DNA of 64,000 nt, taken from Orobanche coerulescens (lineage: Eukaryota; Streptophyta; Magnoliopsida; Lamiales; Orobanchaceae). The notes below the pieces were generated by a model that worked only from the letters and a program-made list of their open reading frames with translations, had not been told where the DNA came from and made no database searches. Position numbers and translations under genes: made by a program. Shown one piece after another: positions 3,131 through 58,475 of the stretch (position 1 is its first letter; each line of letters opens with the position of its first letter). The stretch covers positions 21,047,501 to 21,111,500 of the forward strand of contig CM065814.1 in assembly GCA_033398695.1 (NCBI GenBank). Reading direction: 5' to 3'.

Positions 3131-6100
3131 GTATCATTATTACACATTCTCTCACAGATCCCACCATTTTCCAACCGTCTCATCGAATCATTTTACTATT
3201 TCAATATCACATCAACTTTTATTACTATATTTTTCTCTCATATTCTACACACTTCCAAGATTCAGCCTTCTTTCACTTTATTTTTTTAATTACAATCCTC
3301 TAGCAGGAAAAAGAAACAAATAAAAAGAGGGAAAAAAGTCAAATGAAAGGATCTCTAATTGCACGCGGACCTTCCCGCTGTTTAAGCAATAACTTAATAC
3401 TTCAGAGTTCAGAAAGTGTTCATGAAAGAACACAATTTCACCTGTTGCAATTCCGTAAGGTATCTCAGTGTATGTTCAGATGCAGCGGGACGTGCAATCA
3501 GTTCGTTATATCTGTATAAACACTAACATGTAAGGGCCACCTTGCCAATATGAAAGAGCTTTACTAACCTATTTAATTGACTAAAGTGACAAACCTAAAG
3601 AATATGGGATCACCAATAGCTTTCAACGTGTCTAAGCGTTCTTCAAATTCAGTGGCAGAGGCATCTTCACCATCAGTATACAACCAATCTTCCACCTAAA
3701 TTAATGGACGACTTTAGCCAGTATTTAAAAGAGATACTTGACAAGAAAGTCTGGTCTGAAAATCCATGGGACAGCAAGTACATACACACAAGAAGCCCAC
3801 AGACCAAGGGGTAGGGGAGGGAGAGAGGGAGAGAGCAAACCTCATTGAGTTTTTCAATAAAAGACTGCCGCTCTTGCTGGGAAGATATTCTTCCGAACTC
3901 CTCCGATTCAAGCTATCATATCAACAATCAAGAAAATGCTAAGTTACTCAGACACAATGAATTAAAGGATGCTTAAAATGAATACTGAATCATAAACAAA
4001 AATAATAAACAGTACACTAGTCCTCAAAATAAGAGACAAAAGTGAAACCACCTTAGCACTATCCAGCAGAACCAAGGTAGCAGGGAATGGGGAGTAAAGA
4101 AAGCAGATGAAGAAAATATCAGCGAATAGTCTCAAAGAATGTTTGTGGCAGAATGGGCACATGTTTATGAAACCTTTATAGAACTAGGTAGCCTAGTCTA
4201 GGCGAAGTAATGTACCCATCAGTTACAGTAGAAATACTGGCCAAAGTGAGAAGAATATTGAAACATCAATGGGGGTGTTTTAATATTATACCCACTAACA
4301 TCTAATTCTTAAAACAAAGTAAGTGCAAAGTGTTAGGCATGACCATTGACCAACGAGGCTATGTAGTCATGGATGTCAAAAGTCTACATAAACAAAAAGT
4401 AAATTTCCTACCTTGTCTTTAGTAGAATATATGTATCCTTCCAGGTTATTTTTCAATTCTGCTGTTCTTCTCCTTTCCGCATCCTTCTTGTCCAATACTT
4501 CCAATTTCCGTTTAGCCTCAGCAAGAGACTCTTTTGAGAGAGGCATTCCAGGCCCTGTTGTCTTCTCAATAACCTACAGAAACATACAAACAGGATTCTC
4601 AAGATAATAAAGAATTCAATTATTGTAATCTAAGAGTGGTTTATTTGGATTACCTTGAGGGGAACTCTGAAAGTCCTTTTCTTCAGCTTCTTTTCAGTAC
4701 CAAGATCCACAGTGCTAGAATCATTAGCACCAGAATCTGAAATGTTACTGTTGTTACTTGTCTCCAATTTGTCACTATTTTCCTCTGAAGGATTCTTGGT
4801 ATCAGCGTCTGTAATGTTGGCAGAAGCAGATGTTGAATTGTCCACTGTGAGATTCTTTCTTGGGACTTCAACCCATTCAGTGATCTCAACGACAGCTTCT
4901 GCCCGATCCAATGAAAATATACCACTTCTACTGAGAGAGAAGTGTAAATTGGTCTTAATTGGGGAGGAAAGGTTCCTTGATGAGTACCTGAAAAATACCG
5001 GGGCATTAAGAAAATAGAGTCTGTAATCAAATGAAGTTGGACTATTAAGAAACAAAAAATTCTTACTTTTCACTTGCGTCTGTGAGACCTGACACATCAT
5101 ATTGTGCAAATACCAGCGAAGAGGCTCCAGGTGGTAAGAGATCTTCACTCTCATAAGAAAGTGAAACTTCAAAATCCATGTTGTGGTTAATAGATCTGAA
5201 CATCTGTATTTAAAGTAAAAGCAAATCAAATTGATACCATGGGATGAGACATACCACTCCTTGTATCAAAACTCTTCTTACCCTGCTAGGTAACTTTTTC
5301 ATTCTCGGTACAATAAGCTGTCTGGTGTTTACATCTTTCAAAAGACCTTCACCATTCAACTCAAACACAAAACCATAAGTAGAACCATCGATCATTCCTA
5401 GCTTACGGTTTAATTTAATTCCGTCACTTAAATTTGCAGCATGGAGTGAGGCACCTAGAACAATAGCTTCATCGGCGTCCAGATGTTTGTCCAACTCCTT
5501 CCTTCCAAGAAAATCCTGAAGCTTAGCCTGACGATGAAGTCGGGATTCAATCATCAAATGAATCAAATGAAAACTATGGTAAAATAGATTGAGAAGCTGG
5601 AACATTTGATTTTCATTGCTCCAAGCGAAAATCAGCATTAGCAATAGCCCCATTAGCTATAAGAAAGCATAGAGATCATAATATTATTACTTGTAAGTTG
5701 ATCTGTGTCTAAACGTAACATTGACAAACATAATACTTCTTGAGCAACTCATGGCATGTCTGTTTAAGTTTTAGATGTGAAGTGAAGCACCCCAAAGTTG
5801 GCACAGGGCTTTCGTTTTAAATCAATCTCGCTGTCTCCTATAAGCTCAAAAGTGCACTTTTTTTATTGACTATAAGAAAGCATATTTGTAAGCTAATCTC
5901 AGGGGCTGTTTACTTGTGACTTAATCAGCTTAATGGTAAAATGTCTTATTCACTCAGACGTTTGGAGGTGTTTACTTGTGGCTTAATGGCTTATTCGCGC
6001 AGACAAAAATGACTTATTTATTAAACATGAAAAGGGGTGTGTTGTCCCCATTAAGACAAAAAAATGACTCCCCTACCCCTAATTGAAAACCACACATTTA

Positions 6101-9100: not shown

Positions 9101-12026
9101 CTTAATTGCTGCAAAAAAGGAGTTTGATGGCGGGCCCAATTTGAGAGAACCTACGGATCCGCCTTGAGGACAAGGCTGCTTTTAAGGGGAAGGTAATTGA
9201 TACACTTCTTATTAATTACTGTTTAGGGTTTTACTTTGAGTTGGTGAATATATTGGCCCATGGGCTTAATTGCTTGGGGCTTAAGTTAGTGTTAGGGGTT
9301 TTGAGTCTATTTATATTGCTTTTGTGTCCCTTAGTTAGATTATCTAGAAGATCATCGTTTACAGCTTCGGCTTGAGACGGAATATTTTCCGTAGGAAATC
9401 GGCCATTAGATTGGGACGGGATTCATCCTGTTTGTTTTTCTTTTCTTCGTTTCGCAATATATCTTATTTTCTATATTGGTATCCTATCTTATAGTAAATT
9501 TCAGAATTTCCCTAGTGATCTTGTGTGTCAGCCCTTGACTCTATCATCACATGCATGGAATTTATTTGTTTTATTAAAGATTGTAAACAACAAGAGATTG
9601 ATCAAACATATAACTCATGTCTACAAAATAGAATCTGAAGCATTTTATAACCAATGTTCAAACAAACATATGTCCATAGCAAAGCTTATAATATGAGGGG
9701 ATCAAAAACAGATTCGTAAGCAAACAAAAAACAGAACAAGCAAGGAGTACTCAGGCGAAGGAGGATAAGAGGGGCGGTGATAGCAGATAAAAAGATTTAC
9801 GTATAATGTTTGATAACTTGATTTTGGAAATACACTGACAACTAAAAAAAAGTATTTTTAGAGAGATAAAAAAAGGTAAAAAAAAAAAAAAAAAAACAGG
9901 TCATACACCTAATGCAGTTTCATCAATAAAGATAATTCAATTCTTATAGTTCGTATTCTTCTTTCATTCTTCTCTTTTTTACACAAATATCAGTTATGTA
10001 AAAAAATCCATGAAATTTCAATGATTATTGATACCTGCTTAGATCCGTTTGATAGTTCACAGATAAAGTGTCAGAATAGTTAAATATATAAATCTAGTGA
10101 TCTAAGCTAGACCAAAAACTGGAAGATGGACAATGAAGAAACACAACTTCCTTAGATGGCAGCAAAAGATGGGACAAAATGCACTTAACTATTATGAGTA
10201 CAATTATATAGTGGTCAAAGGAGTACAATACTCATATGCTCGGCAAAATGAGTACTACTGTTCTAATAATATGAGTATTATTTAATTCATATAATATGAA
10301 TACTATTTTACTCATGTAATATGAGTATATGCACCCATAAAAAATAAAAATAAAAAGGTGAGTACTATTGTACACATGTACTCAGCCAAATGAGAAGAGT
10401 AGTACTCATATAGCTATATGAGTCCAGTAGTACTCATATTCATATGGTTAGTAATAGGAGTACCGTAGTAATATGAGTAGTTGCACCCAAAAGTATATAT
10501 AAAAATGTGTAAAGTCCCAAGCCCGAAAGCTGGGTCAGCTATATGTAACCTGAAGTCAGAAAATATATCTTGAAAAGACTGGTGCATTTAAAAGGTCGAG
10601 TAACCTGAGGTCACTGTCGTCGTATAAAGATTCCACAGATATTGGAGCCACCATATTAGCACTCAAAATCTCTTTTGTGCGCTTAACTTGTTTTCTCAAT
10701 TTGGCCATCGCCTTGGGGGAGTTTCTAATGTCGACCCCATTGCCAAGCTGTTTATTGAACTCATCCGCAAAATACTCCACCATCCTCAACTCCATACTTT
10801 GACCCCCAAGATCTGCGTCCCATTTGACATCCTTCACCTGGAACAATATAATCAATACCAAATGTCAAACTACCCACATCAGCACTTGCCATAGAATAAA
10901 CTTTATAATGTCAGTTCGGTGCGTCCTAAGTATTTAAATGAAATCAAAAGTTGGTTACCTGATGGTCATTTCTCTCACACAATCATTTCATTTTAGCGAC
11001 TGAACAAACATCTAACGTTAACCATGACATCAATAAAAAGCGATGATGTGTGCATAATATTCTGTAAGATGTACGAGACACCACCAACAAAGCAACAGTA
11101 AACATTCAAATGCGTGCAATAACAACTTATATATGAGAATGGGTTGTTACTCAAATGCAAGTTAAAATACAAATTTTGAAACTCAAAAATTGAGGATAAC
11201 ACGTCCAACACGTGAATCGCAACCTCCACAACTTCGCTGTTCAAGTATTAAAAGAAAAATTCACCTGAAATTGATTCACAGACACGGCCTTTCCCAATTC
11301 TTTAGCATTATAAGCTGAAAAATACACCAATGCAGCATACGTACTGCTCGCCCCCATGTCGTAAAAAACCACATGCCTTGATCCATTAGAGAAATCTTTA
11401 TCAATTCCATACTGCAAAGCAGCTCCCGAATGTTCATTCACCAAAGCCAGCACATTCAGCCCCGCCAAATCCGCTGCAGCCAACAGTCCCCTCCTCTCAG
11501 CCACCCCAGTAAATGGAGGCACCGTGATCACCACATCCTTCACACTCGTCCTAGCTTGAGTATCCGCCAGCCCCACTGCGTACTTCAGCATCATCCCGAC
11601 CATCTCCTCCGCCGTGAAATTCCCATTCTCCGCTTTAAAAACAGGCACCTCTTGCGCTTTCTCGGGGGCCATCTCGTAACCCAAATACAGCTTACGGAGG
11701 AAATCTCGCGCAAAATTGTAGGGTTTAGCGAGGAGCAAGGGGAGATTGGAGTATACCTTGCTAGGATAACGAGCAAGGAGATTAAGCGACTCCTCGCCGA
11801 TTAACCGAGAATCGGCGTGGAAACTGATTAAAGACGGGGTTTTGCGCTTCGACATTTCGTTAATGGCGATCGAGATCGGTGGCTGTCCGGGCTTGAGGTT
11901 CACCACGGCGACCTTCATCCATTCGGATCCGAGATCTATGCTTGCCACCGCCGATTCAGAATGAAAAGAATTCAGTAGAAACAGTGACAGGAGGAGCAAA
12001 CCGCGGAGCGAATTCGCCGTCGCCAT
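317..12026 (-). CDS. HSP70-17: Heat shock 70 kDa protein 17 (ER-lumenal HSP70/GRP170 family), 14 exons, apparently intact
   Basis: Exons on the minus strand are 12026-11265, 10837-10605, 7114-6955, 5527-5282, 5203-5067, 4987-4654, 4573-4412, 3912-3841, 3695-3595, 3511-3442, 1687-1631, 1539-1478, 956-884 and 493-317. Every junction reads GT...AG. The exons sum to 2646 bases, that is 881 codons plus stop, close to the roughly 870 residues usual for plant members. Residues 1-27 look like a signal peptide. The ATPase domain follows: IDLGSEWMKVAVV at 30-42, VVITVPPFTGVAERRG at 165-180, the phosphate loop VFYDMGASSTY at 220-230 and ELIGGATRVPKLQ at 373-385. A substrate-binding region comes next, with an Asn/Ser-rich acidic insert near 545-605, a helical lid, and a C-terminal HDEL for ER retrieval. 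Proteins of this family act in the ER lumen as large HSP70s and nucleotide-exchange partners of BiP. Introns 2, 3 and 10 are swollen by transposable elements, yet no coding exon is damaged. Confidence 0.95.
2189..2238. repeat. AAT/AGT/AGC trinucleotide microsatellite
   Basis: A run of AAT, AGT and AGC triplets lies in intron 10 of HSP70-17, immediately left of the hAT-like element. The last eight bases (gtagtaat) are the probable left target duplication of that element. Confidence 0.85.
2239..2698. repeat. Perfect tandem duplication, 2 x 230 bp, of the element's left end
   Basis: The unit 2239-2468 is repeated at 2469-2698 with no difference that I could see. Each unit starts with CATGGTTATTACATCG, so the left terminal inverted repeat of the host element is present twice. 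Confidence 0.9.
2239..3041. mobile_element. Non-autonomous hAT-like DNA transposon in HSP70-17 intron 10
   Basis: The left end reads CATGGTTATTACATCG and the right end, on the other strand, reads CATGGTTGTTACGTCG, giving near-perfect terminal inverted repeats. The flanks gtagtaat (2231-2238) and gtagtgat (3042-3049) form an 8-bp target duplication with one mismatch, as expected for the hAT superfamily. Both ends are dense in GTCGACT and CGACTAG motifs, which give subterminal inverted repeats. The middle is AT-rich and includes a TA dinucleotide run near 2798-2826. No transposase is present. The superfamily call rests only on the duplication length and the ends. Confidence 0.65.
3050..3129. 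repeat. (TAA)n microsatellite, about 26 units
   Basis: An uninterrupted run of TAA/ATA triplets lies directly right of the hAT-like element in HSP70-17 intron 10. It continues the trinucleotide tract found on the left side, so the element probably inserted into one compound microsatellite. Long homopolymeric Ile or Tyr frames across it are artefacts. Confidence 0.95.
5724..6900. repeat. About 70-bp direct repeat pair flanking an insertion in HSP70-17 intron 3
   Basis: A block beginning acaaacataatacttcttga occurs at 5724-5792 and again, diverged, at 6831-6900. Both copies continue into a matching stretch that ends near aagtgaagcaccc or aagtgaaacaccc. The segment between them contains the Harbinger-like element. 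The arrangement looks like a local duplication rather than a normal short target duplication. Confidence 0.7.
5902..6756. mobile_element. Putative Harbinger-like MITE relative in HSP70-17 intron 3
   Basis: The left end reads GGGGCTGTTTACTTGTGACTT. The right side, on the other strand, reads CTGCCGTTTACTTTTTC, giving imperfect inverted ends. The subterminal stretch near 6690-6735 (ggggtaaatcgg followed by ttattcagacagttta) matches that of the better-defined element at 26215-26921, so both are probably one family. The interior is extremely AT-rich. No target duplication is evident, and the right boundary is uncertain. Confidence 0.45.
7711..8066 (+). repeat. 5' LTR of the intron-2 element
   Basis: This 356-bp terminal repeat runs from TGATACG to CTATCA. 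It is followed directly by the internal region beginning attggtccgacctg. It differs from its partner at many positions, so the insertion is not recent. Confidence 0.87.
8043..8710 (+). pseudogene. Degenerate gypsy-type gag fragment
   Basis: Two overlapping frames are needed, so at least one frameshift is present. The first (8043-8486) carries a helical segment, METVEKGLEDVWREL. The second (8408-8674) carries SMQWLLRCQPDMTWPNFTRA followed by LLQRFGDN and then TVDEFVDAF. This is the pattern of the retrotransposon gag domain (W..F...L..RFG). A stop follows at once, and no zinc knuckle, protease or polymerase can be found. It cannot support transposition on its own. Confidence 0.65.
9198..9546 (+). 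repeat. 3' LTR of the intron-2 element
   Basis: This 349-bp copy of the terminal repeat runs from TGATACAC to CTATCA and is followed by the right target duplication tcaca. Confidence 0.87.
10180..10500. repeat. Degenerate ATGAGTACT / AGTACTCAT repeat tract in HSP70-17 intron 2
   Basis: Variants of atgagtact and its complement (agtactcat, tactcatat) recur every 15-40 bases through this AT-rich stretch, in both orientations. The tract could fold into several short hairpins. No coding potential is seen and I recognise no known element. Confidence 0.6.
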
Positions 12027-12257
12027 TTTTGTGGAATTTTCGAGCTCTCACCTCTCAATATGGCATCAACGGAGTCCAGTGGGGAAAGGGGTTTTTCTAG
12101 GGGGGGGGGAGTTGGGAAATGGTAGGGGTTATGGCGAATAGTGAAATGACACGTAGACGAAAGGACACGTGGTTGGATCTTAGTCGCAGGGTGCGTTGTT
12201 TGGCGTTGTCTTTTATCATAACGCTAAATGGTTCAAAGTAAAAGCAATTGAAAGTGA
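12027..12257 (-). promoter_or_regulatory. Probable 5' UTR and proximal promoter of HSP70-17
   Basis: This stretch lies between the HSP70-17 start codon and the left end of the hAT element. On the gene's strand it carries two ACGT-core motifs: CCACGTGT at 12165-12172 (G-box-like) and TACGTGTC at 12148-12155. Both are of the type bound by plant bZIP factors. ER chaperone genes of this family are commonly induced through bZIP factors in the unfolded protein response. No full ERSE element is seen, so that regulation is inference. Confidence 0.4.
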
Positions 12258-27632: not shown

Positions 27633-27784
27633 TGTTATAAACTTGAGAGAAAAAAAGAGAAATTGAAAGAGAAGAAGAATAATGTGTGTATTCTTATGAG
27701 GGCCAAAAGCTTTTATTTATAGGTACACATATAGGGTTTCAGGGGTATAAAGGTTATTCATTAATAAATACATTAATTACAACA
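27633..27784 (-). repeat. 3' LTR (152 bp) of the minus-strand copia relic
   Basis: On the minus strand it starts TGTTGTAATTAATG directly after CAAGGGGGAG and ends TTTATAACA. It contains a TATA-like stretch (ctataaataaaagc on the minus strand). The length and the TG...CA ends suit a small copia LTR. Confidence 0.65.
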
Positions 27785-27833
27785 CTCCCCCTTGAATGAC
27801 CTTTAATACATGCTGCCTCATTAAAACCTTGTC

Positions 27834-28247
27834 GGGAAAACTCAGTGGGAAAAAAACCGATCGAAGGAAAAAGAGTACAGCTACTCCCCCTGAAATCGAT
27901 TACATAAGATCTTTGAGTTGACGCATTCCGATCTTGTGTACTAGTCTTCTGAATGTTGATGTCGGCAACACCTTTGTGAATAAGTTCGCCGACTAATCAC
28001 TTAAGTGAATATTTGATGTATCTACCATTGAGATACAAGTGACATCGTCTTCATACAATAGTTCCTCTTGAATATTATGATGTTCATGCCTCATCAACTC
28101 CTTCGGAAAAACCCTGTGGGAAAAAACCGATAGAGAAAAAGAGTACATAGTATAAATTTGCTCATGTGTTGCATTGGTTGCCTCGTTAAAAACCTTAACT
28201 AAGAAAACCCGGTGGGAAAAAACTTAGAAAGAGAAAAAGAGTACAAC
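27834..28247. repeat. Three copies of a GTGGGAAAAAACCGA-type motif near the copia 3' end
   Basis: Similar 45-bp phrases occur at 27834-27880, 28108-28152 and 28203-28247. Each has aaaac(c)c.g(t)gtgggaaaaaa, then a variable part, then ga(a)aaagagtac. They lie between the RNase H relic and the LTR. Similar sequence is familiar from the 3' regions of plant copia elements, but I cannot give it a function. Confidence 0.65.
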
Positions 28248-28410
28248 CATTTGGTCTTCAGGACCTTTTGACCTTCAGGGTCGACATAATCTTCAAACTG
28301 ATTTAAAAGTTATCACTTATCCCCCTCCAGATAACAATCTTGCACTCCAATACCATGAATATAATTTTCAGACATGGAGAGATTTAGTGAATAAATCTGC
28401 TAGATTATCA

Positions 28411-30113
28411 TTATTGCTCTTTTGAAGCTCGTGTGGAAATAAATTTCATCTTACTTGCCCAAACATTATATGCGACACATAAATGGAGAATATTTATCAT
28501 CATAATAAATAGGCAGTATGAGAACAAATATGAGATCATAATCCCTAATAGCCACCAATATCGAATCTCGATCTCTTTCATGTAATAAACCAATATGGTT
28601 AACACCATTCCACATTCTCCTTCCTGGAGAAATATTAAATTTTGCTAGCATGTTAACTTCAAATTGTATATCATGCCTGATAATGTAATGCTTCAATAGC
28701 ATACAAGTACGGAACTTCTGGTCCTCTTATATCTTTGTTATTTTCTTGATATCTATATGAGTCGGTATCCACTTCAAGTGGTAAGACAACCTTTAGGTAG
28801 CTAAATGGATAAAAACTTTCCATCATATATTCCCGATCTACAAGTCGAGACAATACTAATACTTAATTTTATCTAAGTTTTTCATTTTGAACTTGTATTT
28901 AGACACGAGTTCAAATAATTCACATATATCCTCTTCAGGAGGAATTCACTTAGTCGGTTGATCCACCAGACTATTTCAAAATGTATAAATATTTATAACT
29001 CAAAATAGTACATGTTGCGAATTTCCTGTTCCTATTACTCTAGGAACCTCAAGTCCGTCAGGGACTTTCATATAGATATTCGCGTCCAATGAACCATAGA
29101 AAAATGTGGTGATGACATCACTAATTGAATATCTATATTCATAATAATTGTCATATGTATATTAAATGACGAAATTTAGTGCCAACGGGAGAATATGTTT
29201 TGGGTATGCGCTTAAACCCTTGATATGCTAATCTCGCTTATCTTTCACCACTTTATTTTATTTTGCGAGTTAAGCTTTGTCTCAAGTGCTTATATTTTAT
29301 TTAGTGCTTCAGGCACTCCACTAGCAATTGTTGTGACACAAAGTGTTGTCGATAACTATCATTCTTATAAACAATTCTCCCATATTCACAAAGTCAATGA
29401 CAACTTCAACAAAATCAAATATTCAACATTTCCCATAATATTTGATTTGGTCGTCCCATAATCCAATACTGTAATTATTTAGTGCACGTGCAAATTAAGG
29501 TATTGAGATTCTCATCTTCGGGATGATCCTCTTCAGGAGGTTTTTGAAGTGATGTTATAGTTTAATCTATTTGTATTCTGCGGATTTTATCTTTAATACC
29601 AATAAAGAATACGTCTCTCACGCTTCTGGCGTTGAGGAGTATCAACAAATATATTTCGTTCACATTCGACTTTAATTCTTTATGGTACATATACAACTGG
29701 TATATGAGATTTCATCACTCCTTTGTCAATCAATAACTTGTTGAACTTCGAGTTCATAGTGCGTAAATTTAAATATCCAACTTAACGAGAATTTTTCGAC
29801 TTTCTCTTATTTATATTTTATATCTCCCACTAATGTCGGAGATAGTTGGAATTGGATTATAAAATCAATCCTCTTCAGGAGGTGCACTAATAACAGAGGG
29901 CGTGACCCAAATATTGTGCCTTTGATATGGATACTTGAATTTGAAATTCATCGCAACATGATCATTGGATAAAATATTATATCGCTTATAGTTAATTCGA
30001 TACTCATTGAATAAACTCCTTTTAGACCGACAATAAGAATATTGCCATATGAAATTATACCAATCCTTCGGGGATTGTCTTTCCATTCCTCCAGTAGCAA
30101 TTGAACAAATCAA
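28411..30113 (-). pseudogene. Copia reverse transcriptase / RNase H relic
   Basis: The minus strand encodes RGPEVPYLYAIEAL, then ISPGRRMWNGVNHI, matching the copia segment GPEVPYLxAIGAL...RPTRRHWNGVKHI between reverse transcriptase and RNase H. Further upstream are KVPDGLEVP and, at about 29865-29900, an acidic APPEED stretch like the linker between integrase and reverse transcriptase. The frame is broken by many stops and shifts, and several hairpins fall inside it. No YVDD box could be read. Confidence 0.55.
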
Positions 30114-30210
30114 TATGACATAAAGTTATGTATTTTTTATTTGAAATAAATACATGCAACTTCAAATGTAAGTTGCTCACCACGAGCATGTGTTTTTCTT
30201 CAAGAATATT

Positions 30211-30432
30211 AATTGTGCTAACTCAGGAGCAACAATTTAAATCAAAGATAATCATATATTACCGGAAATATGAAGTACTCATCAAAAGTATGTGATATTT
30301 TTCAAAAGTATCAATTATGCTATCTTGGGAGCAACAATTTATAAACATATAACACCCAAAATATAAATTACTCTAAAGAGTATGTAAATATTAATTAAAA
30401 GTATTAATTGTGCTACGTTATGAGCAACAATT
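30211..30432. repeat. Three repeats of an AATTGTTGCT-type hairpin
   Basis: Copies at 30211-30237, 30313-30339 and 30406-30432 each have an arm aattgtgct (or aattatgct), an 8-base loop and the arm agcaacaatt. Spacing is about 100 bp. The left arm lacks one T in each copy, so the shared defect predates the duplication. Confidence 0.7.
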
Positions 30433-31776
30433 TATATCAATGTGGTGATAATAGAAGCAATTCAATAACACAAGGCCATATAGAAAATATTCAAAATAAT
30501 GCCTTTTTTTTGTTTAATATTCTTCAGGAATATTAACTTTAACTGATGTGTTTATCATAAATACTATCATAAAAATATGACTATATATCGTTGTGTTTTA
30601 TCAAGAACATCAACAATTTCTTTTTAATAATCTTCTGGATTATTAAAATTACAAATTCATATTTCTTCGGGAAACCATGAAAATATATTAATGTAATGTA
30701 TTAAAAGAATCATTACAAATAATTTTATATCAATGATACAAGTATTATCGTCAATATAATATGTAATAACTATCGTTATTACTCTTCTTCCAGAAGAAAG
30801 CGCAATAATTATTATGAAATTAATCCAACATCTATAAGATGCTGATGAAAATTGGTCAACTCAAAATAATACAATTTTAAGTGTATAAATATACTTCATG
30901 ATATTTACTAGTAATTTGTGATATTTATCATACAATATGTGTGAATTTGTATTAATATATCTTCAGGATATATATCATAAATAAACATATAGTTAAATAA
31001 TATATAAAAATAATATAAATAGACTTTAACACCAAACACGTAAATTTAAACATGTAAATATTGAAAGTATTGGGATTAATAGACTTCTGGTCTAATAAGT
31101 GGTGAATATTATTTACATTGATATTTTTTCTAATACCAATTTCTTTTCTTCAGAAATTGTATATGTCATTTGTTTGTTATCGCGGAATCATACATATTTC
31201 AAGCGATAGTTTAGAAATCCATAGATTTATCGATACTTAGAAGATAATAGTGCAAAATCTTCGACCATGTAGGAAGAAATTTAGTGGTTCTTCATGAACT
31301 GTTAATAAATTTAGCACTACCTTTTTTTTTTCATACGAAAAGTATCATTCTAAAGATATCATGCATATTTGCACTTTGATGAGACAATAAATCATGACCA
31401 TTATTTAATCCCAAGAACTTGGTATTCTATTCATAAAAAGAAGAAACAAGATAAGCCAAGAATTTGAATGATACAAATATCTTCAGGATATTTGACCCTT
31501 TTATCACTAATTATATAGCAACGATCAATTCAAATCATACTCCAGGTATGCCATCAACTAGGTATTCTCATGTTTGCTTGATGCGTATAGGGTTTTCACA
31601 ATGTATACTTTAAATCACATGTATAAATGAAAACAGTAAGGACGGAATGTAAAATGCACAGAGATATAAGTGGTTCGAGGTAAACCCCTCTACGTCCACT
31701 GGTCCTCCACACAGGAGTAAAATGTTTATTAAAATCACTACGTACACAACTACGTGACTTTAACTAAACCTGTCTC

Positions 31777-33697
31777 TGTTATTAGGAATATGCCCTCGAA
31801 TGCCACTCAAAGAATGAGAGAGTGAGAGCATTGTATTGTTATTATGAATATTAAATTAAATAAGGCATTAATTATTTCTATATTATTGAATATCACGGGG
31901 ATTATAATTTGTTATGTAGAATAATAGTCCTTGCGTTTGAGAGCAAACATTCCACTCCTAATGAAGATAAAGAGATAGGTACTGGAAGCGTTTAAGGCTC
32001 GAATACTTAATTGGTTCGCAAGTCGATAAAACTTAACTGGACAGTAAGTTTAGACAAGGTTTGTATAACGTGTACTCTGACATGTAGAGTGACTGTCTTC
32101 ACTAAGGATTAGTGGGAGCACACGTTATAGGTATGCTAATGGGATTAGTATACTCGAACACGACTCACCTCGATTCGGTCACATGGATATCACTCATGGA
32201 TTGTCAATGACTGAATCGAAAGGTTGTGAGAAGGTATACGTGAACCTTTGACTTGAGGTTTCACTAGGAGATGTGCTTGTGATATTAAGTTAGTCATTAG
32301 AGTAGTTCGATCCAATCGCTGAAAGGTGGGTTAACCTCAAAATGCAACTTAGTGGGCATACCAAGATAGGATTCTTTCTCCTGTTAGTGAGCAGGTAAAT
32401 GTCCTATGCGGTTAATGGCAAATGAAATCATAAGTCTTTGGCCAAAGCAGTTAGATCTAGTTGTATTTGATACACAAGAGCTCAGTGATCTCGGTCTGTA
32501 TTAACAAATGTATAGAGTCAAGTTATAATAGGATTTGACTTTACCGTGACCCTAATACTTGACCGGGATATATGATTGAAGGGTTTATACATATACAATA
32601 TTCACGACATAATGGTTTTGAAATGATCCGATCATTCGTTCTTAGTTGGGTTACGGTACGGAGCACTAAACTGGCTAAGTGTTACCCGTACTCCTTGGTT
32701 CCTCCCATTGCCGACTAAGACGGACCTATGGAGTCGCGCACAAGGATATTTGATGGATAAAATATGTATTTATTATCTCTTCATTGATATTGGATATTAG
32801 ATATCTAATTTGATTTATTTGATAAATCATGCGGTCTAGTGAATTAAAATTAATTACCGGGTAATTAATTTAATTCATAAATAATTATTTCTTGAAAATA
32901 TATTATTATAATTTTTTATTTGCTAAAATTAATTAATTGGATTAATTAATTAAGTATAAATACATTTGAGATAAAATGAAGTGTACTTAGCAGACTATAC
33001 ATGCGAACGTCCGGTACACGAACCGAGTGGCTCGGCTCGTTTTCTCATCTACATCATGTGGCCGCCCCTCCTCTTTCCTCTAAGCTTCCATTTGGCTCCA
33101 TATGATGTGGGGTGTGTTAGTTTCATATTATGAGACGAGGACAAATGGATGAGATATCTTATCTCATCGATCTTATTTTTGTTTTATAAAATATGAATGT
33201 CTTTCATTTGATGATGACTTGTGAAAAAACACATACACACCAAAGGGCAACCGTGAGCAAGAGGAGAGGAGAGAGAGAAATAATTATCTCCATCTTATTC
33301 ATCTTTGAGAGAAAGAAAAGGAAGAAGAGAAGAGAAGAAAAATACTGTATCAATTCATAGTCGTGTTCTTTGAGAATGAAGTGATAATTTATTTTTCCGA
33401 TCAATATTCGACGCATGATAACGTAGAGACACTCGGCATCTTCGGTGTTTTGATCTTACAACGAATTGGATTCGTGTTCGTGTTGGTGACCGGAAACGAT
33501 CAAAGTTTGGCTCGCGAATTTTTCTTGAAGAAGATATTATCAAAGGTCTATGACAGTATGATCTCTTAATTTTATCCTCGTCGTTTTATATTCGTATATA
33601 CGATGCTTGATCGACCCGTTTTTGGGGTTTGGTTTTATCCAGTTGGACCAATTTATTTTCCACTGCATATCTCGATTTTAATCACCGAATCCCAATA
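31777..33697 (+). repeat. 5' LTR of copia-2
   Basis: It starts TGTTATTAGGAATATG (a short insertion relative to TGTTAGGAATATG of copia-1) and ends ATCCCAATA. A TATAAATA box lies at 32955-32962, and a near-perfect hairpin (acgaaccgag/ctcggctcgt) at 33018-33040. Confidence 0.8.
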
Positions 33698-50482: not shown

Positions 50483-52329
50483 TGTTAGGAATATGCACTC
50501 GAATGCCACTCAGGGGATGAGAGAGTAGGGGCATTGTACTTATAATTATGGAATAATCAATAAAAAGGCGATTCGATTCATTCACTGTTTATTGTATTTC
50601 AATTGCATTCTTGACTTGGTAAATATTGAAATGAAGTCCATGTAAATAAATCGAACATTCCATTCTTGTTATGAGATAAGAGAAAATGCACTGGAAGTGT
50701 TTAAAGTTTATTTACGTAAATCATTCGCAAGTCAATAAGCTTAAATGGGCATTAAGTTTTAATAAGACTTGTATAATTGATGCTAGGACATGTGCATGTC
50801 TTGATAGCATAGTTATAAGTATATTGGTGGGACCAGTATACTCGAACACGACTCATACTTGATTCAGTCACACGGTATTCACTCTCGGAGAGTCAATGAT
50901 GAATCGAAAGGCTGTGATAGTATACGTGGACCTTTGACTTGAGGGTTCAGTAGAAGATGTGCCTGTGACGTTTAGTTTGTCATTAGAGTAGTTAGACTCA
51001 TTTGCTTAATTGCTGAGTCGACCTCGAAGTGCGGACTATATGGGCATGTAGCAGTCTTTACTGTACGCCAAGAAAGGATTCTATCTCCTGTTAGTGAGCA
51101 GGCGAATGTCCTATACGGTTAATGGCAAATAAGATCATAAGTTTTTGGCCAAAGTCGTATTAGATACACTATTAATCAGTCGGTCTTGATTTACATTAAC
51201 ACATGTATAGAGTCTAGTCAACAGTAGGGTTTGACTTTACCATGACCTGAAGACTTGACCGGGACATCTGATGAAGGGACTATACGTATATAGTATTCAC
51301 GACATAATGGTTCTAGAATGATCCCTTCATTTGTTCTCAGTCGGGGTTTACAGTGCGGCCCGCTAGGCTGGCTAAGTGCTGCCCGCACTCATTGGTTCCT
51401 CCCAATGCCGGCTGAGACAGACCTACGGATACGCGCATCAGGAGCGTTGACGGATAACTGTGAATTTATTATCTCTCTATTAATATTATATATTGGATAT
51501 CTAATTATGATTTATTGGATAAATCAAATAGCAGTCTTATGAATTAAAATTAAGTTACCGGGTAATTAATTTAATTCATAAATTATATTTCTTAGAGAAA
51601 TATATTTTTATTTGATATAATTAATTAATTAGATTAATTAATTAATATAAATACATTGATGATTAAACGGAGTCGTTTGACGAACGTCCTGTACACGAGC
51701 CGAGTGACTCGGCTCGTTTCTAGGAAACTTCCTTGGGACCGCCCCACCCTCTCCCCACCTCACATGGAATTATTTTCATGCATGTGTATGTGATGGTGGT
51801 GTTTTTGTTATTTTGTGTTGACATTTTATCTCATTATTAGACATATTAATTATATGTTTGAGAGATATATATTAAACACACATGATAACAACTAAAAACA
51901 CACACATACACATACTTTCTTGCTGCTCCTGGCCGAGAGTGATATTGAGAGGAGGGAGAAATTTTTTCATCTTATTTTCTTTCACTTTGAGTTGAGGAAA
52001 AATAAGAGATAAATTGAGAGAAAAAAATTCCTACGAGTTCCCTAGCCGTGTTCTTGGAGAACGGAGTCTCGTCGAATTTTTTCCGGGCAACTTCCGACAC
52101 GTGTGAAGTAGAGGCTTCGAAGTTTCGGTGCTTGGAACGAAGAAATTTCGTGTTCGTGACGGGTTCGTGATCATCATCCATTTTACGAAGATTTATTTCA
52201 AAGGCTTCAAGGGTATGATCCTTTATCTTCGTATTTAATTTTTCGTATATACGTTACTTGATCGATCCTGTTTGGGATTCGGTTTTTATTTTCTGCTGCG
52301 TATTTCGTTTTATTTTCGGAATCCCAACA
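50483..52329 (+). repeat. 5' LTR of copia-1
   Basis: It runs from TGTTAGGAATATG to GGAATCCCAACA. TATAAATA lies at 51646-51653, and a perfect 10-bp-arm hairpin (acgagccgag/ctcggctcgt, loop tga) at 51695-51717. Confidence 0.9.
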
Positions 52330-52330
52330 A

Positions 52331-52346
52331 TGGTATCGGACCGAGG
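52331..52346 (+). other. Primer-binding site of copia-1
   Basis: TGGTATCGGACCGAGG starts one base after the 5' LTR and corresponds to the initiator-Met tRNA 3' end with changes. Confidence 0.75.
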
Positions 52347-53113
52347 TCAATGATACCGTATATACGATTATTTGTGCATTTTGAATTCTTTTGGATGATG
52401 TTTATGACTTAGAATCATGTTTGGTACAATCGTAGATTTTAAATGATTCGTTGTAACATCACGTTTTGGAAAAGAGCCGAAAAAACGAGCCGAATGGAGA
52501 TTGGACTCGGCAGCCCAGGGCTGCCCGAGTCACTACCAGGCAGTGCCTGGCAGGGTGGCCGGACTAAGTTTGAAAAAGGTTACGAGGTTTCCTACCCTCC
52601 ATCAAACTCGTAGAAAATTGATACCCAAACTGGTGTGCTATGCTTCTGAGTTATCAGGGTAGTACATTTGGTAGAGGTTGAAAAATTCTTGAGTGCATTA
52701 GATCCCTTCGGTTGGTGATAAATTTCGCCCTAGAAACCTGATAGGTTGCCGGGTGAGATTCAATAGTCAAACCGATAGACGTTGATGGTCAACAACTTAG
52801 ATAGTCTGGATTGCCAAGAAACCTGATAGGTTGAGGGCATGAAGACTAAGGGTAAAAGAAGATCAAATCATTCGTTAGACGGGTTGGTGTTAGACACCAC
52901 TTTACAGAAATTAATTGGCAAGAAACCTGATAGGTTGCGTCTGTTAAAATTTGAAAAGAACTTGATCACCACTAAGAAGTCGTTCTTATCATGATTTCTG
53001 GATTATAACATGAGAGTGTATAATTCCGATAAAATTAGTGGGAGCCGAGACAAGAATTATACAAGCCCTTAAATTCTATACTCGGTCATAATAAAACAGT
53101 CACTAATTTAATC

Positions 53114-53665
53114 TTGTCTAAATCTTTGCAGAAAACGAAACCAAATCTCTCTAAAATGGCTAAAAACCTACTTGCAATACTACTTGAAAAGAATCTCCTA
53201 ACTGGCCCCAACTTTGTTGACTGGTTGCGGAATCTGATGATTGTACTCAGTTTGGAGTCTCTGGGATACGTCTTGGAGGCAGACATTCCACCGACTCCAA
53301 TCCGGACTAGGGGTAATCAGGAAGATATTGACGTCCATGAAAAATGGGTCAAGGATGACGTGCTAGTCCGTGGCTTTATGATGGGCTCAATGACAAATGA
53401 GCTGCAGAGAGCGCATGAGAAAATGACTTCTGCTAGGCAGATTCTCGCACACTTGACCGAACTTTATGGAGAGCACAGTAGGACTGCTAGATATGAGATA
53501 TCAAAGCAGTTGTTCAGTGCTAGGATGAAAAAAGGGGAGAAAGTGGGAGACCACGTCCTCAAGATGATCTCTATGATTGAGAGGCTCGACGTGCTCAACT
53601 TTAATATGGATTTATCACTTCAAATTGATCTCATTCTTCAATATCTCCCTGACTTTTTCATGTAG
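53114..53665 (+). pseudogene. Copia-1 gag, N-terminal part
   Basis: A 183-codon frame begins at 53114, or more likely at the ATG at 53156 (MAKNLLAILLEKNLLTG). It contains NFVDWLRNLMIVLSLESLGY, typical of copia gag (W...L...L). Later come RQILAHLTELYGEHSRTARY and DHVLKMISMIERL, the gag-2 domain. It ends at a TAG (53663-53665), and the following frame opens four bases later. This protein would form the virus-like particle. Confidence 0.8.
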
Positions 53666-53668
53666 GTT

Positions 53669-54844
53669 GTGATGAATTTCAACTGTAATGAAATTTCATG
53701 CACATTAGCTGGGCTAATGAATAAACTGGTGACGGCACAGTCTAACATGAAGACTAAACCGAGAGAGGCTGCTCTTGTGATTTCTTCTGGGCCTCGGAGG
53801 TCCAAGAACAAGAAGAAAAAGATCTACGAGCAGTACAAACCCAAGAAAGGGGTGCAGAAAGGAAAGGGCAAGGCCCAAAAGGTTCAAAAGGTAGGCGGTC
53901 CAAAACCTACGGACAAATGCCTTGAATGCGGTGAGCTGGGCCACTGGAGAAGGACTTCTCCTAAGATTAATGGCGCATCAGGTACGGAACTTTTTGTTTT
54001 TGAAACTAATTGTTCCGCTACTGTATATTCTGCTTCATGGATTCTGGATTCAGGTGCCACTTTTCATATTTGTACTATGAATCAGGATCTGGAACGAAGT
54101 AGGAAACTTGAAGCTGGGGAGATAATGATCACTATCGGAAGCGGACAAAGTGTCGAGGCAACCGATATTGGATCAATCCTATTGGGTTTAGAATCCGATT
54201 ATATTTTGACATTAGATGAAGTACTTGTTTTACCCAAGGGGCATAAAAACATTGTATCCATTCCAGTCTTGGACCGGAAAGGAATTTGTTTCTTCATTGG
54301 CAATGGTAGTTGTAAAATTTATTTTCGAAATAAATTGGTTGGCACATCTACATTATTGAATGGTTTATATCATCTGAACATGCAAAATAAAACAGCAGTG
54401 AACACTATAACTAGGAAACGTGGCAGGCAAGATACTATTCAAGCTCTTAAATGGCACCTTAGACTTGGTCATGTTGGTCAGACCAAGGTTCAAAAAATGG
54501 AGAAAGATGGACTTTTAAGTCCATTGGGTGTAGAACCCTATCCAACTTGTGAATCTTGCCTTAGAGGCAAAATGACCAAGTCTCCCTTCACAGTGACTTT
54601 TGAAAGGGCTGCCAATAAATATGGATTAGCACATACCGACGTTTGTGGTGCTTTAGAAGTGGCCAAAGACGGATATCAATATTTCATAACGTTCACAGAT
54701 GATCATACTATGTATGGGATTGTGTACTTAATGAAACATAAATCCGAAGCCTTCACTAAATTCAAAGAATTTAAGGCCCTAGTTGAAAACAAACTGGATG
54801 TCATATCAAAGCACTTCGGTCGGACCGAGATGGCGAATATATGA
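53669..54844 (+). pseudogene. Copia-1 zinc knuckle, protease and integrase N-part
   Basis: This 391-codon frame has a basic stretch, then CLECGELGHWRRTSPK, a zinc knuckle whose last Cys has been replaced. The protease has the DSG active site (SWILDSGATFHIC), then follow LPKGHKNIVSI and the GAG-pre-integrase segment LKWHLRLGHV...CESCLRGK, which is the HHCC zinc site. The integrase core shows HTDVCGALEV and FTDDHTMYGIVYL, carrying the two catalytic Asp residues. The frame ends four bases past the ATG of the next frame, so a short overlap or shift separates it from the third catalytic residue. Confidence 0.88.
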
Positions 54845-55551
54845 GCATAGAGTTTGATGAGTTCCTTAAGGAACATGGAATAGTTTCACAATTCATGCCG
54901 CCAGGAACCCCACAGTTAAATGGTGTTTCAGAAAGGAGAAATCGGATTTTGTTGGACATGGTTCGCTCCATGTTGAATTACACTGATTTACCAATTTACC
55001 TATGGGGGTATGCCTTACTAACCGCTGCCTATATCCTTAATAGATGTCCTTCCAAATCCATTCCTATCACTCTGCATGAGATGTGGAAGGGTAAGAAACC
55101 AAGCCTTAATCACATAAGGAATTGGGGATGTCCAGCCTATGTCAAGAAGGCTAAGGTGGACAAACTGGAAGCGAGGTCCATCAAAGGACGTTTCATTGGA
55201 TACCCGGAGGACTCGATGGGTTATCTATTCTACATGCCAGAAGACCATAGGGTCGTTGTGGCATTACAAGTGCACTTCCTCGAGGATGAATTCATTCAGG
55301 AAGGTGGCTTGGGTAGAAATATCAATTTGGAAGAGCATAATGAAAGTCCTAAGGAGACATCTGATCAGGGATCAGGAACCGAACCTATTGTAACACAACC
55401 TCCACTTCGAAGGTCTGATAAGGTGTATCACTTATCTGAGAGGTATGGCTATACACATGTCGAAGAACTGGGTCTCCATGACACACCTGATAGTCGTGAG
55501 GACGGCCCCTTCGATTTGATGAAGCAGTCAGAGGACTTTGACTTCGTGTGA
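54841..55551 (+). pseudogene. Copia-1 integrase C-part and linker to reverse transcriptase
   Basis: The frame reads EFDEFLKEHGIVSQFMPPG, then PQLNGVSERRNRILLDMVR with the third catalytic residue (Glu) of the DDE triad, then WGYALLTAAYILNRCPSKS and RSIKGRFIGYPEDSMGY. A linker with the pattern PPLRRSDKV follows, which normally precedes reverse transcriptase. It ends at a stop at 55549-55551. Confidence 0.87.
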
Positions 55552-56492
55552 AATGAGGAGGAACCATGTGTTTACAAAAGGGTCACTGGGAGCAACAATG
55601 CATTCTTAGTACTATATGTAGATGATATTATGCTTATAGGAAATAACGTAGCAATGCTCAGCACTATGAAGGCTTAGCTTTCTAAAACGTTCTCCATGAA
55701 AGACTTGGGAGAAGCTTCCTAATTCTAGGGATCCGTCTTTACAGAGATAGACCGCGAAGAATGATAGGACTTTCCCAAGCCCTCTATATAGATAAAATCC
55801 TGAGAAGATTCAAGATGGATGAATCTAAAAGAGATTTCCTTCCCATGCGACATGGAATTCATCTCACCACGAATATGTGTCCTCAAAGTGAGGAAGACAA
55901 GAGAGAGATGAGTAAGGTACCCTATGCCTCGGCATTGGGTAGCCACATGTACGCTATGTTGTGTACGAGACCGGACTTAGCCTACGCTGTGAGTATGGTA
56001 AGCCGATTTCAAGCAAACCCAGAAAGGGAACACTGGACTGCTGTCAAGAACATTCTTAAGTACTTGAGAATAACTAGAGATATGGTTCTTACTTACGGTG
56101 GTGGAGAACTGAAGGTGATTGGATTAACCAATTCTGAATTTCAAGGAGATAATGACGACTCTAAGTCGATATCTGGGTATTTGTTTACTCTCAATGGAGG
56201 AGCAGTATCTTGGAGGAGCTCCAAGCAAACCGCTACTGCAGATTCCACCTGCCAAGCAGAGTACCAAGATGCCTTAGCGGCTAGCAAAGAAGCATTTTGA
56301 ATGCAGAAGTTTGTGCAAGAACTTCAAGTGGTGCCTAATACGGAGCTGCCTATATCACTATTCTGTGATAATGATGGAGCTGTCGCCCAAGCCAAGGAGC
56401 CTAGGGCTCACCACAACACCAAGCATATAGAGAAAAAGTACCACATCATTAGAGAGATGGTTGATAATGATATGTTTCGTTGCAAAGAGTAG
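55552..56492 (+). pseudogene. Copia-1 reverse transcriptase (N-part deleted) and RNase H
   Basis: The reverse transcriptase begins in the middle, at EPCVYKRVTG, followed by LYVDDIMLIGNN with the YVDD box at 55615-55626. The first 150 or so residues expected between the integrase linker and this point are absent. A stop and a frameshift occur between 55675 and 55760. The next frame (55761-56300) runs through the thumb region to RNase H: TADSTCQAEYQDALAASKEA. It continues after a stop with LFCDNDGAVAQAK and HHNTKHIEKKYHIIREMV. The deletion alone would abolish reverse transcription. Confidence 0.87.
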
Positions 56493-56614
56493 ACTCAGAA
56501 GACAATATCTCTGACCCGCTAACTAAGCCATTATCTCAGGACGTCTTGGAAAGACATCTGAAAAATATGGGTATTGGATACCATGATGTGTGTCATTTAG
56601 TGCAAGTGGGAGAT

Positions 56615-58475
56615 TGTTAGGAATATGGACTCAAATGCCACTCAGGGGATGAGAGAGTAGGGGCATTGTACTTATAATTATAGAATAATTAATAAAAAGG
56701 CGATTCGATTCATTCACTGTTTATTGTATTTCAATTGCATTCTTGACTTGGTAAATATTGAAATGAAGTCTATGTAAATAAATCAAACATTCCATTCTCG
56801 TTATGAGATAAGAGAAAATGCACTGGAAGTGTTTAAAGTTTATTTACGTAAATCATTCGCAAGTCAATAAACTTAAATGGGCATTAAGTTTTAATAAGAC
56901 TTGTATAACTGATGCTAGGACATGTGCATGTCTTGATAGCATAGTTATAAGTATATTGGTGGGACCAGTATACTCGAACACGACTCATACTTAATTCAGT
57001 CACACGGTATTCACTCTCAGAGAGTCAATGACGAATCAAAAGGCTGTGTTAGTATACGTGGACCTTTGACTTGAGGGTTCAGTAGAAGATGTGCCTGTGA
57101 CGTTTAGTTTGTCATTAGATTAGTTAGACTCATTTTCTTAATTGCTGAGTCGACCTCGAAGTGTGGACTATATGGGCAAGTAGCAGTCTTTACTGTACGC
57201 CAAGAAAGGATTCTATCTCCTGTTAGTGAGTGGGCGAATGTCCTATACAGTTAATGGCAAATAAGATCATAAGTCTTTGGCCAAAGCATTCTGATATAGT
57301 CGTATTAGATACACTATTAATCAGTCGGTCTTGATTTATATTAACACATGTATAGAGTCTAGTCAACCGTAGGGTTTGACTTTACCGTGACCCGAAGACT
57401 TGACCGGGACATCCTGCGAAGGGTCTATACGTATGTAGTATTCACGACATAATGGTTCTGGAATGATCCCTTCATTCGTTCTCAGTCGGGGTTTACAGTG
57501 CGGCCCGCTAGGCTGGCTAAGTGCTGCCCGCACTCATTGGTTCCTCCCAATGCCGGCTGAGACGGACCTACGGAGTCGCGCATCAGGAGCGTTGACGGAT
57601 AAATATGAATTTATTATCTCTCTATTAATATTAGATATTAGATATCTAATTATGATTTATTGGATAAATCAAATAGCGGTCTTATGAATTAAAATTAAGT
57701 TACCGGGTAATTAATTTAATTCATAAATTATATTTCTTAGAGAAATATATTTGTATTTGATATAATTAATTAATTAGATTAATTAATTAATATAAATACA
57801 TTGATGATTAAACGGAGTCGTTTGACGAACGTCCGGTACACGAACCGAGTGACTCGGCTCGTTTCTAGAAAACTTCCTTGGGTCCGCCCCACCCTCTCCC
57901 CACCTCACATGGAAGTATTTCCATGCATGTGTATGTGATGGTGGTATTTTTGTTATCTTGTGTTGACATTTTATGTCATTATTAGACATATTAATTATAT
58001 GTTTGAGAGATATATATTAAACACACATGATAACAACTAAAAACATACACATACACATACTTTCTTGCTGCTCCTGGCCGAGAGTGATATTGAAAGGAGG
58101 GAGAAATTTTTTCATCTTATTTTCTTTCACTTTGAGTTGAGGAAAAATAAGAGATAAATTGAGAGAAAAAAATTCCTACGAGTTCCCTAGTCGTGTTCTT
58201 GGAGAACGGAGTCTCGTCCAATTTTTTCCGGGCAACTTCCGACGCGTGTGAAGTAGAGGCTTCGAAGTTTCGGTGCTTGGAACGAAGATATTTCGTGTTC
58301 GTGACGGGGTTCGTGATCATCATCCATTTTACGAAGATTTATTTCAAAGGCTTCAAGAGTATGATCCTTTATCTTCGTATTTAATTTTTTATATATACGT
58401 TACTTGATCGATCTTGTTTGGGATTCAATTTTTATTTTCCGCTGCGTATTTCGTTTTATTTTCGGAATCCCAACA
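56615..58475 (+). repeat. 3' LTR of copia-1
   Basis: This 1861-bp copy matches the 5' LTR with scattered differences. TATAAATA is at 57791-57798, and the hairpin at 57840-57862 has one mismatched pair (acgaaccgag/ctcggctcgt). Confidence 0.9.

Follow-up and report, generated by a model that had tools for sequence, protein, structure and literature searches.

The 64,000-nucleotide stretch of Orobanche coerulescens DNA analyzed here (contig CM065814.1, forward-strand positions 21,047,501 to 21,111,500, hereafter the window) holds a 5'-truncated, minus-strand member of a long terminal repeat (LTR) retrotransposon family whose internal region carries an array of short hairpins with variable stems and one recurring loop. 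The element is a non-autonomous, copia-derived LTR retrotransposon of ~5.4 kb, similar to the large retrotransposon derivatives (LARDs), in which no genes are seen. Among the DNA examined, the array is restricted to this element and is retained across its copies. Sequence comparison supports selection on the hairpin structure, and from it we infer a ligand: the chances are about even that selection acts on the hairpins as multiple docking points for a protein provided in trans, with Gag and a role in packaging as the likeliest case.

A pentaloop inverted-repeat scan reports 22 perfect hairpins within positions 28240-31560, which bears out the array of more than twenty hairpins proposed in the original prediction, made from the letters of this DNA. 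As written on the forward strand, 20 of the loops are TTCNN, one is GTCAG (29051-29067) and one TCCAG (31536-31550). The near-constant loop claimed for them is equally real, since in the sense of the element the hairpins share, with few exceptions, the form stem-C[NNGAA]G-stem, and the closing pair is C-G in all 22. Perfect arms of at least 4 bp surround 20 of the 87 TTCNN pentamers at 28240-31560 (exactly 3 bp in one case, shorter in 66), versus four of the 1313 in the remaining window (exactly 3 bp in 20, shorter in 1289). Dinucleotide shuffles of the array region (n=500), the control by which the claim was to be judged, yield a mean of 0.6 hairpins and a maximum of 4, these values falling to 0.036 and 2 for hairpins closed by C-G. 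All 14 arm pairs originally listed are recovered; two had been given coordinates, one of them exactly right and the other off by 1. The arms, described as unrelated between hairpins, are mostly so, apart from three occurrences of CCTC/GAGG in the window and four of TATTC/GAATA in the full copy L011. The longest stems had been located in AT-rich, non-coding sequence. Stem length does increase as GC content falls, as expected if stability counts (rho -0.73, p 1e-4, 22 hairpins; chance extension in AT-rich DNA may contribute), but the split between coding and non-coding parts does not stand, all of the sequence being non-coding now.

The carrier had been taken for a single decayed copia element, and is instead a family of similar copies without genes, some of them recent. 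Comparison of the array region with the 3.65-Gb genome reports 2827 first-look candidates, the best 40 of which were scored and gave 42 rows, namely the window itself and 41 others with 94-97% identity to the window copy; 36 of these 41 end at window position 31556. Copies were fetched from 20 places with flanks and from 14 more without flanks. The full copies, of ~5.4 kb, comprise an LTR of ~152 bp, an internal region, a polypurine tract (PPT) and a second LTR. Fifteen of the 20 places fetched with flanks match L011 from end to end, the other five being shorter or diverging near one end. In the 15 copies whose LTR pairs were compared, the two LTRs are identical at 128/141 to 152/152 positions (at least 97% in 9/15), and a 5-bp target-site duplication is recognized by eye in 13, with four of the five bases in L026 and an unreadable site in L014. 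L011 and L017, the two full copies translated, contain no sense stop-to-stop frame longer than 86 residues, the sense frames of the window copy are full of stops, and remnants of copia reverse transcriptase (RT) and RNase H are legible on the minus strand of the window. Paired LTRs, the lack of a long frame and the copia remnants therefore identify a family of LTR elements in which no genes can be recognised and which includes recent copies. The 3' ends of L010, L013, L016 and L027 are more divergent than the remainder of the copies (81% and 89% over the last 300-430 bases in L013 and L027; LTR pairs identical at 140/149 positions in L010 and 136/146 plus gaps in L016), perhaps through recombination or conversion with another subfamily.

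The family displays what is expected of LARDs: paired LTRs with target-site duplications, no coding capacity in the two full copies, a PPT and a conserved internal domain. LARDs such as Sukkula likewise combine LTRs, a conserved internal domain without protein genes and many copies, and are characterised as gene-less elements with conserved RNA structures (PMC7215508). In contrast, no loop-identical hairpin array is named for them in the sections of this source that we cite, and the LTRs of the hairpin element are only ~152 bp long and its interior is copia-derived. Queried with the X-masked RT/RNase H remnant, the protein collection returns nothing at E 0.001. The linker pattern has no matches in the viral contigs and genome contigs, and a copia protein query against the viral contigs confirms no relative. 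A shorter, 14-base pattern matched 120 viral stretches, of which the 80 listed serve as a background set only.

L011 and L017 carry 23 and 24 hairpins, respectively (perfect stems of at least 4 bp, one CTGAC loop each included). They lie between positions of about 590 and 4836 in the 5.4-kb element, with none in the LTRs or the linker, and the array reaches ~1 kb past the window copy, with five more hairpins in L011 and six in L017. In total, 20 copies hold 432 C[NNGAA]G hairpins in 108.6 kb, versus 2 in 88 kb of flanks; the non-element part of the window has 4 on both strands together. The 80 viral contigs (711 kb, chosen by the 14-base match) have 26, with a maximum of 2 per 5.4 kb per strand. 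A chance origin of the array is ruled out by the shuffles, the flanks of the copies, the remaining window and the other contigs. When good stems are defined by a score of at least 11, with one mismatch or G-U tolerated, they enclose 24 of the 134 NNGAA pentamers of L011 versus 42 of its 5286 other pentamers, while in the rest of the window they enclose 12 of 1245 NNGAA and 0.8% of all pentamers. Hairpins with other loops are at background (0.8%), and the excess is therefore confined to one loop type.

Two segments of L011, A (494-1126) and B (2290-2967), are 61% alike, and three hairpins align between them (607/2411, 641/2444 and 948/2774). By eye, the shared stems display three two-sided pair changes with pairing kept and one broken pair, and one further pair fails just outside these stems; the other hairpins of the two segments are without a clear partner. 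A duplicated hairpin module as the origin of the array is rejected, as only A and B resemble duplicates, the two top-scoring pairs of masked flanks being A/B pairs. Overall, the masked surroundings of the hairpins are no more alike than random windows (mean score 9.6 vs 11.1), although the test is rough, since masking itself lowers the scores of hairpin flanks. Among 34 copies compared with L011, 108 pair cells are changed: 71 are broken, 36 are G-U and one is a two-sided compensatory change (L026, G-C to C-G). Covariation among copies, the proposed test of the stems, is thus seen in this one change, and one-sided changes dominate (107/108). Such decay is expected of copies that no longer move, and with one-sided changes prevailing in copies 94-97% like the window copy, the check is weakly informative. 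The first loop C (CHG context, in CTG/CAG-type loops) mutates more than flank C (private variants 1.10 vs 0.41 per site), as would be expected if the copies are CHG-methylated.

Coding relatives were collected with the database protein P0121 as query, which gave 150 scored hits out of 45907 candidates, many of them with open frames. One of these, L163, has a 1050-residue frame, a linker common to the gene-less element and an LTR ~80% alike. The ~4 kb read there contain four C[NNGAA]G hairpins, three of them inside the frame; synonymous shuffles of this frame (n=1000) contain on average 0.3 perfect hairpins, and 3/1000 reach three. The hairpin of L011 at 4020, in the RT remnant, aligns with a hairpin of L163 (loops CTGAC and CAGAA, respectively), and their stems exhibit a compensatory G-C/A-T difference. 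In five further coding copies, of which short stretches were read, this RT site forms a perfect hairpin in four and one with a G-U pair in L166. The hairpin of L163 at 1785 is missing in the gene-less element; the corresponding site is perfect in three of the five coding copies (one with a CCGAA loop) and includes a G-U pair in L170, the stretch of L172 being non-homologous. Conversely, L163 is devoid of a hairpin at the alignable L011 sites 3453, 4143, 4304 and 4456. At site 3453, L163 reads ACGT-CAAAA-GCGT and the gene-less element ACGC-CTGAA-GCGT, and none of the four readable coding copies has the hairpin of the gene-less element. At site 4304, the two read ACACTTGATGTAA and CCACTTGAAGTGG, respectively. 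The differences from L163 at 3453 and 4304 account for loop and stem alike, whereas at 4143 a gap and several changes come together. Site 3330 is without a hairpin in L163 either, in a poor alignment.

The features of the window copy are as follows, with loops given in the sense orientation.

27633-27784, minus strand: 3' LTR, ~152 bp, sense start TGTTG and end AACA, by match to the LTRs of other copies
27785-27793, minus strand: polypurine tract AAGGGGGAG adjoining the LTR, by sequence reading; same position in several other copies
27815-28246, minus strand: 3' linker with the GTACTCTTTTTC...TTTTTTCCCAC motif three times; linker common to the coding relative L163
27903-27989, minus strand: RNase H tail remnant inside the 3' linker
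28253-31550, minus strand: array of 22 hairpins with perfect stems, all but a few of them C[NNGAA]G in the sense orientation
28253-28265, minus strand: hairpin, 4 bp, loop CTGAA
28270-28282, minus strand: hairpin, 4 bp, CTGAA
28374-29119, minus strand: broken copia RT/RNase H remnant with stops, by reading of frames and by tblastn of copia proteins against L011
28615-28631, minus strand: hairpin, 6 bp, AGGAA; no hairpin at the aligned L163 site
28769-28781, minus strand: hairpin, 4 bp, TTGAA; aligned L163 site TTGAT with a 2-bp stem
28929-28943, minus strand: hairpin, 5 bp, CTGAA; no hairpin at the aligned L163 site (internal 4-base gap)
29051-29067, minus strand: hairpin, 6 bp, CTGAC, within the RT remnant; present in L163 with a compensatory pair
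29303-29317, minus strand: hairpin, 5 bp, CTGAA
29512-29526, minus strand: hairpin, 5 bp, CCGAA
29528-29540, minus strand: hairpin, 4 bp, CTGAA
29620-29632, minus strand: hairpin, 4 bp, CAGAA; aligned L163 site ACGT CAAAA GCGT
29742-29756, minus strand: hairpin, 5 bp, TCGAA; none in L163, alignment poor
29870-29882, minus strand: hairpin, 4 bp, CTGAA
30061-30077, minus strand: hairpin, 6 bp, CCGAA
30514-30536, minus strand: hairpin, 9 bp, CTGAA
30622-30648, minus strand: hairpin, 11 bp, CAGAA; duplicated nearer the 5' end in L011, there with a compensatory pair
30662-30674, minus strand: hairpin, 4 bp, CCGAA; in L011 5 bp, CTGAA
30783-30797, minus strand: hairpin, 5 bp, TGGAA
30955-30973, minus strand: hairpin, 7 bp, CTGAA
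31080-31094, minus strand: hairpin, 5 bp, CAGAA
31287-31299, minus strand: hairpin, 4 bp, ATGAA; in L026, G-C to C-G on both sides
31474-31494, minus strand: hairpin, 8 bp, CTGAA
31536-31550, minus strand: hairpin, 5 bp, CTGGA
31556: position at which the window copy is truncated on its 5' side; full copies run ~1.5 kb further to the 5' LTR

Inside the element, positions 30176-30440 also consist of two to three diverged tandem units of ~100 bp each.

The array had been attributed to selection or to a copying mechanism acting on the hairpin itself. Selection is the best explanation, given that other loops are at background and that compensatory differences separate A from B and the element from L163; a copying mechanism fares poorly, as the excess is specific to one loop. 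A loop that stays constant while the stems vary freely is typical of sites for a protein that reads the loop and needs no more than a helix. The RNA of the element would carry about two dozen short stem-C[NNGAA]G-stem hairpins, and one RNA-binding protein would read the loop, requiring merely some stable stem. Since a gene-less RNA needs the Gag of another element, and since the same genome contains coding relatives whose LTR, linker and PPT are related to those of the element (L163 being the one read), we propose that the hairpins are repeated Gag sites, the likeliest ligand being the Gag (or nucleocapsid) of coding relatives with related LTRs. The gene-less RNA would then be packaged with high avidity into the particles of these relatives, and its freedom from coding constraint would have let it collect more sites than a relative could. 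This scheme assumes that the differences from the relatives are selected gains, that the hairpins fold in cells, that a protein binds them, that this protein is Gag, and that packaging increases with the number of sites. Somewhat short of an even chance, in our estimate, is the fuller scenario of a parasitic RNA with an inflated array of packaging hairpins, gained by small changes, that would out-compete the RNA of its helper.

Two known systems resemble parts of this proposal. In barley, BARE1 packages the parasitic copia subfamily BARE2, which cannot make Gag; BARE2 RNA is packaged into virus-like particles, in keeping with the conservation of dimerisation and packaging signals (PMC3735527). 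However, the portions of that work drawn on here name no dispersed hairpin array for BARE2. In RNA viruses and hepatitis B virus (HBV), packaging stem-loops are dispersed and display a coat-protein motif in the loop (PMC6281560, PMC7612645). The array similarly comprises multiple stem-loops with a common loop motif, spread along the genome; in the accounts cited, viral signals have measured binding, are described for viruses only and number three conserved ones in HBV, whereas the hairpins of the array are putative sites. If the fuller scenario above is true, the element would be a case from nature, with sites that can be counted, of an LTR retrotransposon selected for packaging signals dispersed along its whole genome. 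The array, with its roughly two dozen sites, one loop and variable stems, is a direct and testable candidate for the cis signal by which gene-less LTR elements are packaged. Coding relatives in the same genome allow asking where sites were gained. Should the ligand be Gag, the idea of dispersed packaging signals would extend from viruses to plant retrotransposons.

Several observations weigh against selected packaging hairpins. Within the family, constraint is weak: 72 of 294 stem sites are variable versus 1446 of 4965 flank sites (p 0.10, over columns in which at least 15 copies are represented and two or more copies other than L011 agree with it), although A/T sites taken separately differ (23/188 in stems vs 675/3516 in flanks, p 0.016). 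Nor does the shared-to-private variant ratio reach significance (p 0.17), and the spacing of the hairpins is not significantly regular (P 0.08). G-U and A-C changes in the stems are about equally frequent (30 vs 25 distinct), so that mutations do not tell which strand folds, and over 28 L011 positions the predicted pairing averages 0.66 for the sense and 0.75 for the antisense strand, several sense hairpins being predicted weak. Regarding the coding relative, with looser stems (score of at least 10) its synonymous shuffles have a mean of 0.8 hairpins and 35/1000 reach the observed count, and two of its three in-frame hairpins lie on Val/Ile-Pro-Glu-Gly codons. Together with the small number of its hairpins, this means that hairpin use by L163 is not established. 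The sites missing in L163 rest on weak alignments, the DNA pieces aligned by blastn being 56% and 71% alike and the others aligned in translation only, and polarity rests on L163 and on short stretches of five coding copies covering site 3453 and the RT site only.

The main rival, unlikely but by no means negligible, is that the hairpins recruit by avidity a host RNA-binding protein acting in export, stability, localisation or translation control. One loop on any stem, at many sites in an RNA without genes, would suit such a protein as well, and loop-reading host proteins that tolerate varied stems exist, the Smaug family among them. A host motif might, however, be expected elsewhere, and few such hairpins occur in the remaining window or the flanks. 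None of the results distinguishes a host ligand from Gag. The Smaug recognition element itself has the loop CNGG(N), whereas that of the array is NNGAA, and it is rejected as the identity of the hairpins.

The remaining explanations are all improbable. The least so is a mutational process of reverse transcription, either template switching or the correction of one arm from the other, that would make and mend perfect palindromes without selection. Most stems are indeed perfect, the change in L026 is two-sided, and at site 4143 a gap and several changes together separate the element from L163. Yet such a process should act on any loop, and other-loop hairpins are at background; at 3453 and 4304 the divergence from L163 extends to the GAA of the loop, and all changed pair cells but one are one-sided. 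A shade less credible is a role in duplex DNA, as cruciforms or as sites for recombination, chromatin or transcription factors. It would agree with hairpins being predicted on either strand, the RNA strand not being singled out, but sites recognised in duplex DNA would not be expected to keep their arms complementary while the arm sequences vary, and cruciforms with 4-5 bp arms would hardly extrude. Most improbable of all is the protein-level repeat that had been offered as an alternative on account of the Pro-Glu codons in the core. Despite the two L163 hairpins on such codons, the arms vary and still remain complementary, and the idea fails on the short, stop-ridden sense frames of L011, L017 and the window copy.

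A literature search among open-licence papers found no retrotransposon with such a loop-identical hairpin array. The bacterial RNAs CsrB and RsmZ present many GGA-loop hairpins on one RNA, displaying one motif to one protein; they are sponge RNAs with another motif and no relation to the array. An Rfam scan of L011 identifies no described RNA family, the two matches being weak (E 0.12 and 0.32, 22 and 18 bits vs gathering scores of 100). Mimicry of the tRNA-Phe anticodon (CUGAAG) is ruled out because the second loop base varies. A heat-shock element is rejected too: TTCnnGAA occurs in one hairpin, but by inspection its flanking bases vary with the stem. High-copy palindromes of plant copia elements are known as Sirevirus RM boxes (PMC2829016), and these were likewise dismissed: as described in the cited text, each element has one palindrome, in the LTRs or upstream of env, nearly always with a CGG-CCG core (PMC2829016), whereas the array has variable arms and a constant loop and lies in the internal region.

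The window contains other elements. A copia element at 50483-58475 has an LTR pair (50483-52329 and 56615-58475) 95.8% alike and long pol frames, and an LTR-like piece at 31779-33042, 75% similar to its LTR, starts 0.2 kb past the truncated hairpin element. Three long direct repeats, 93-94% alike (13843-16141/20246-22580, 34002-35248/35699-36979 and 42496-43481/45815-46803), probably represent other elements, either as LTR pairs or as tandem duplications. Open frames at 11241-12047 and 4630-5656 (minus strand) resemble parts of an HSP70-family gene. Lastly, plant proteins are among the matches of the window's copia proteins; P0021, P0023 and P0103, fragments of copia type that the protein collection assigns to Escherichia, Klebsiella and Enterobacter, are probably plant DNA contamination.

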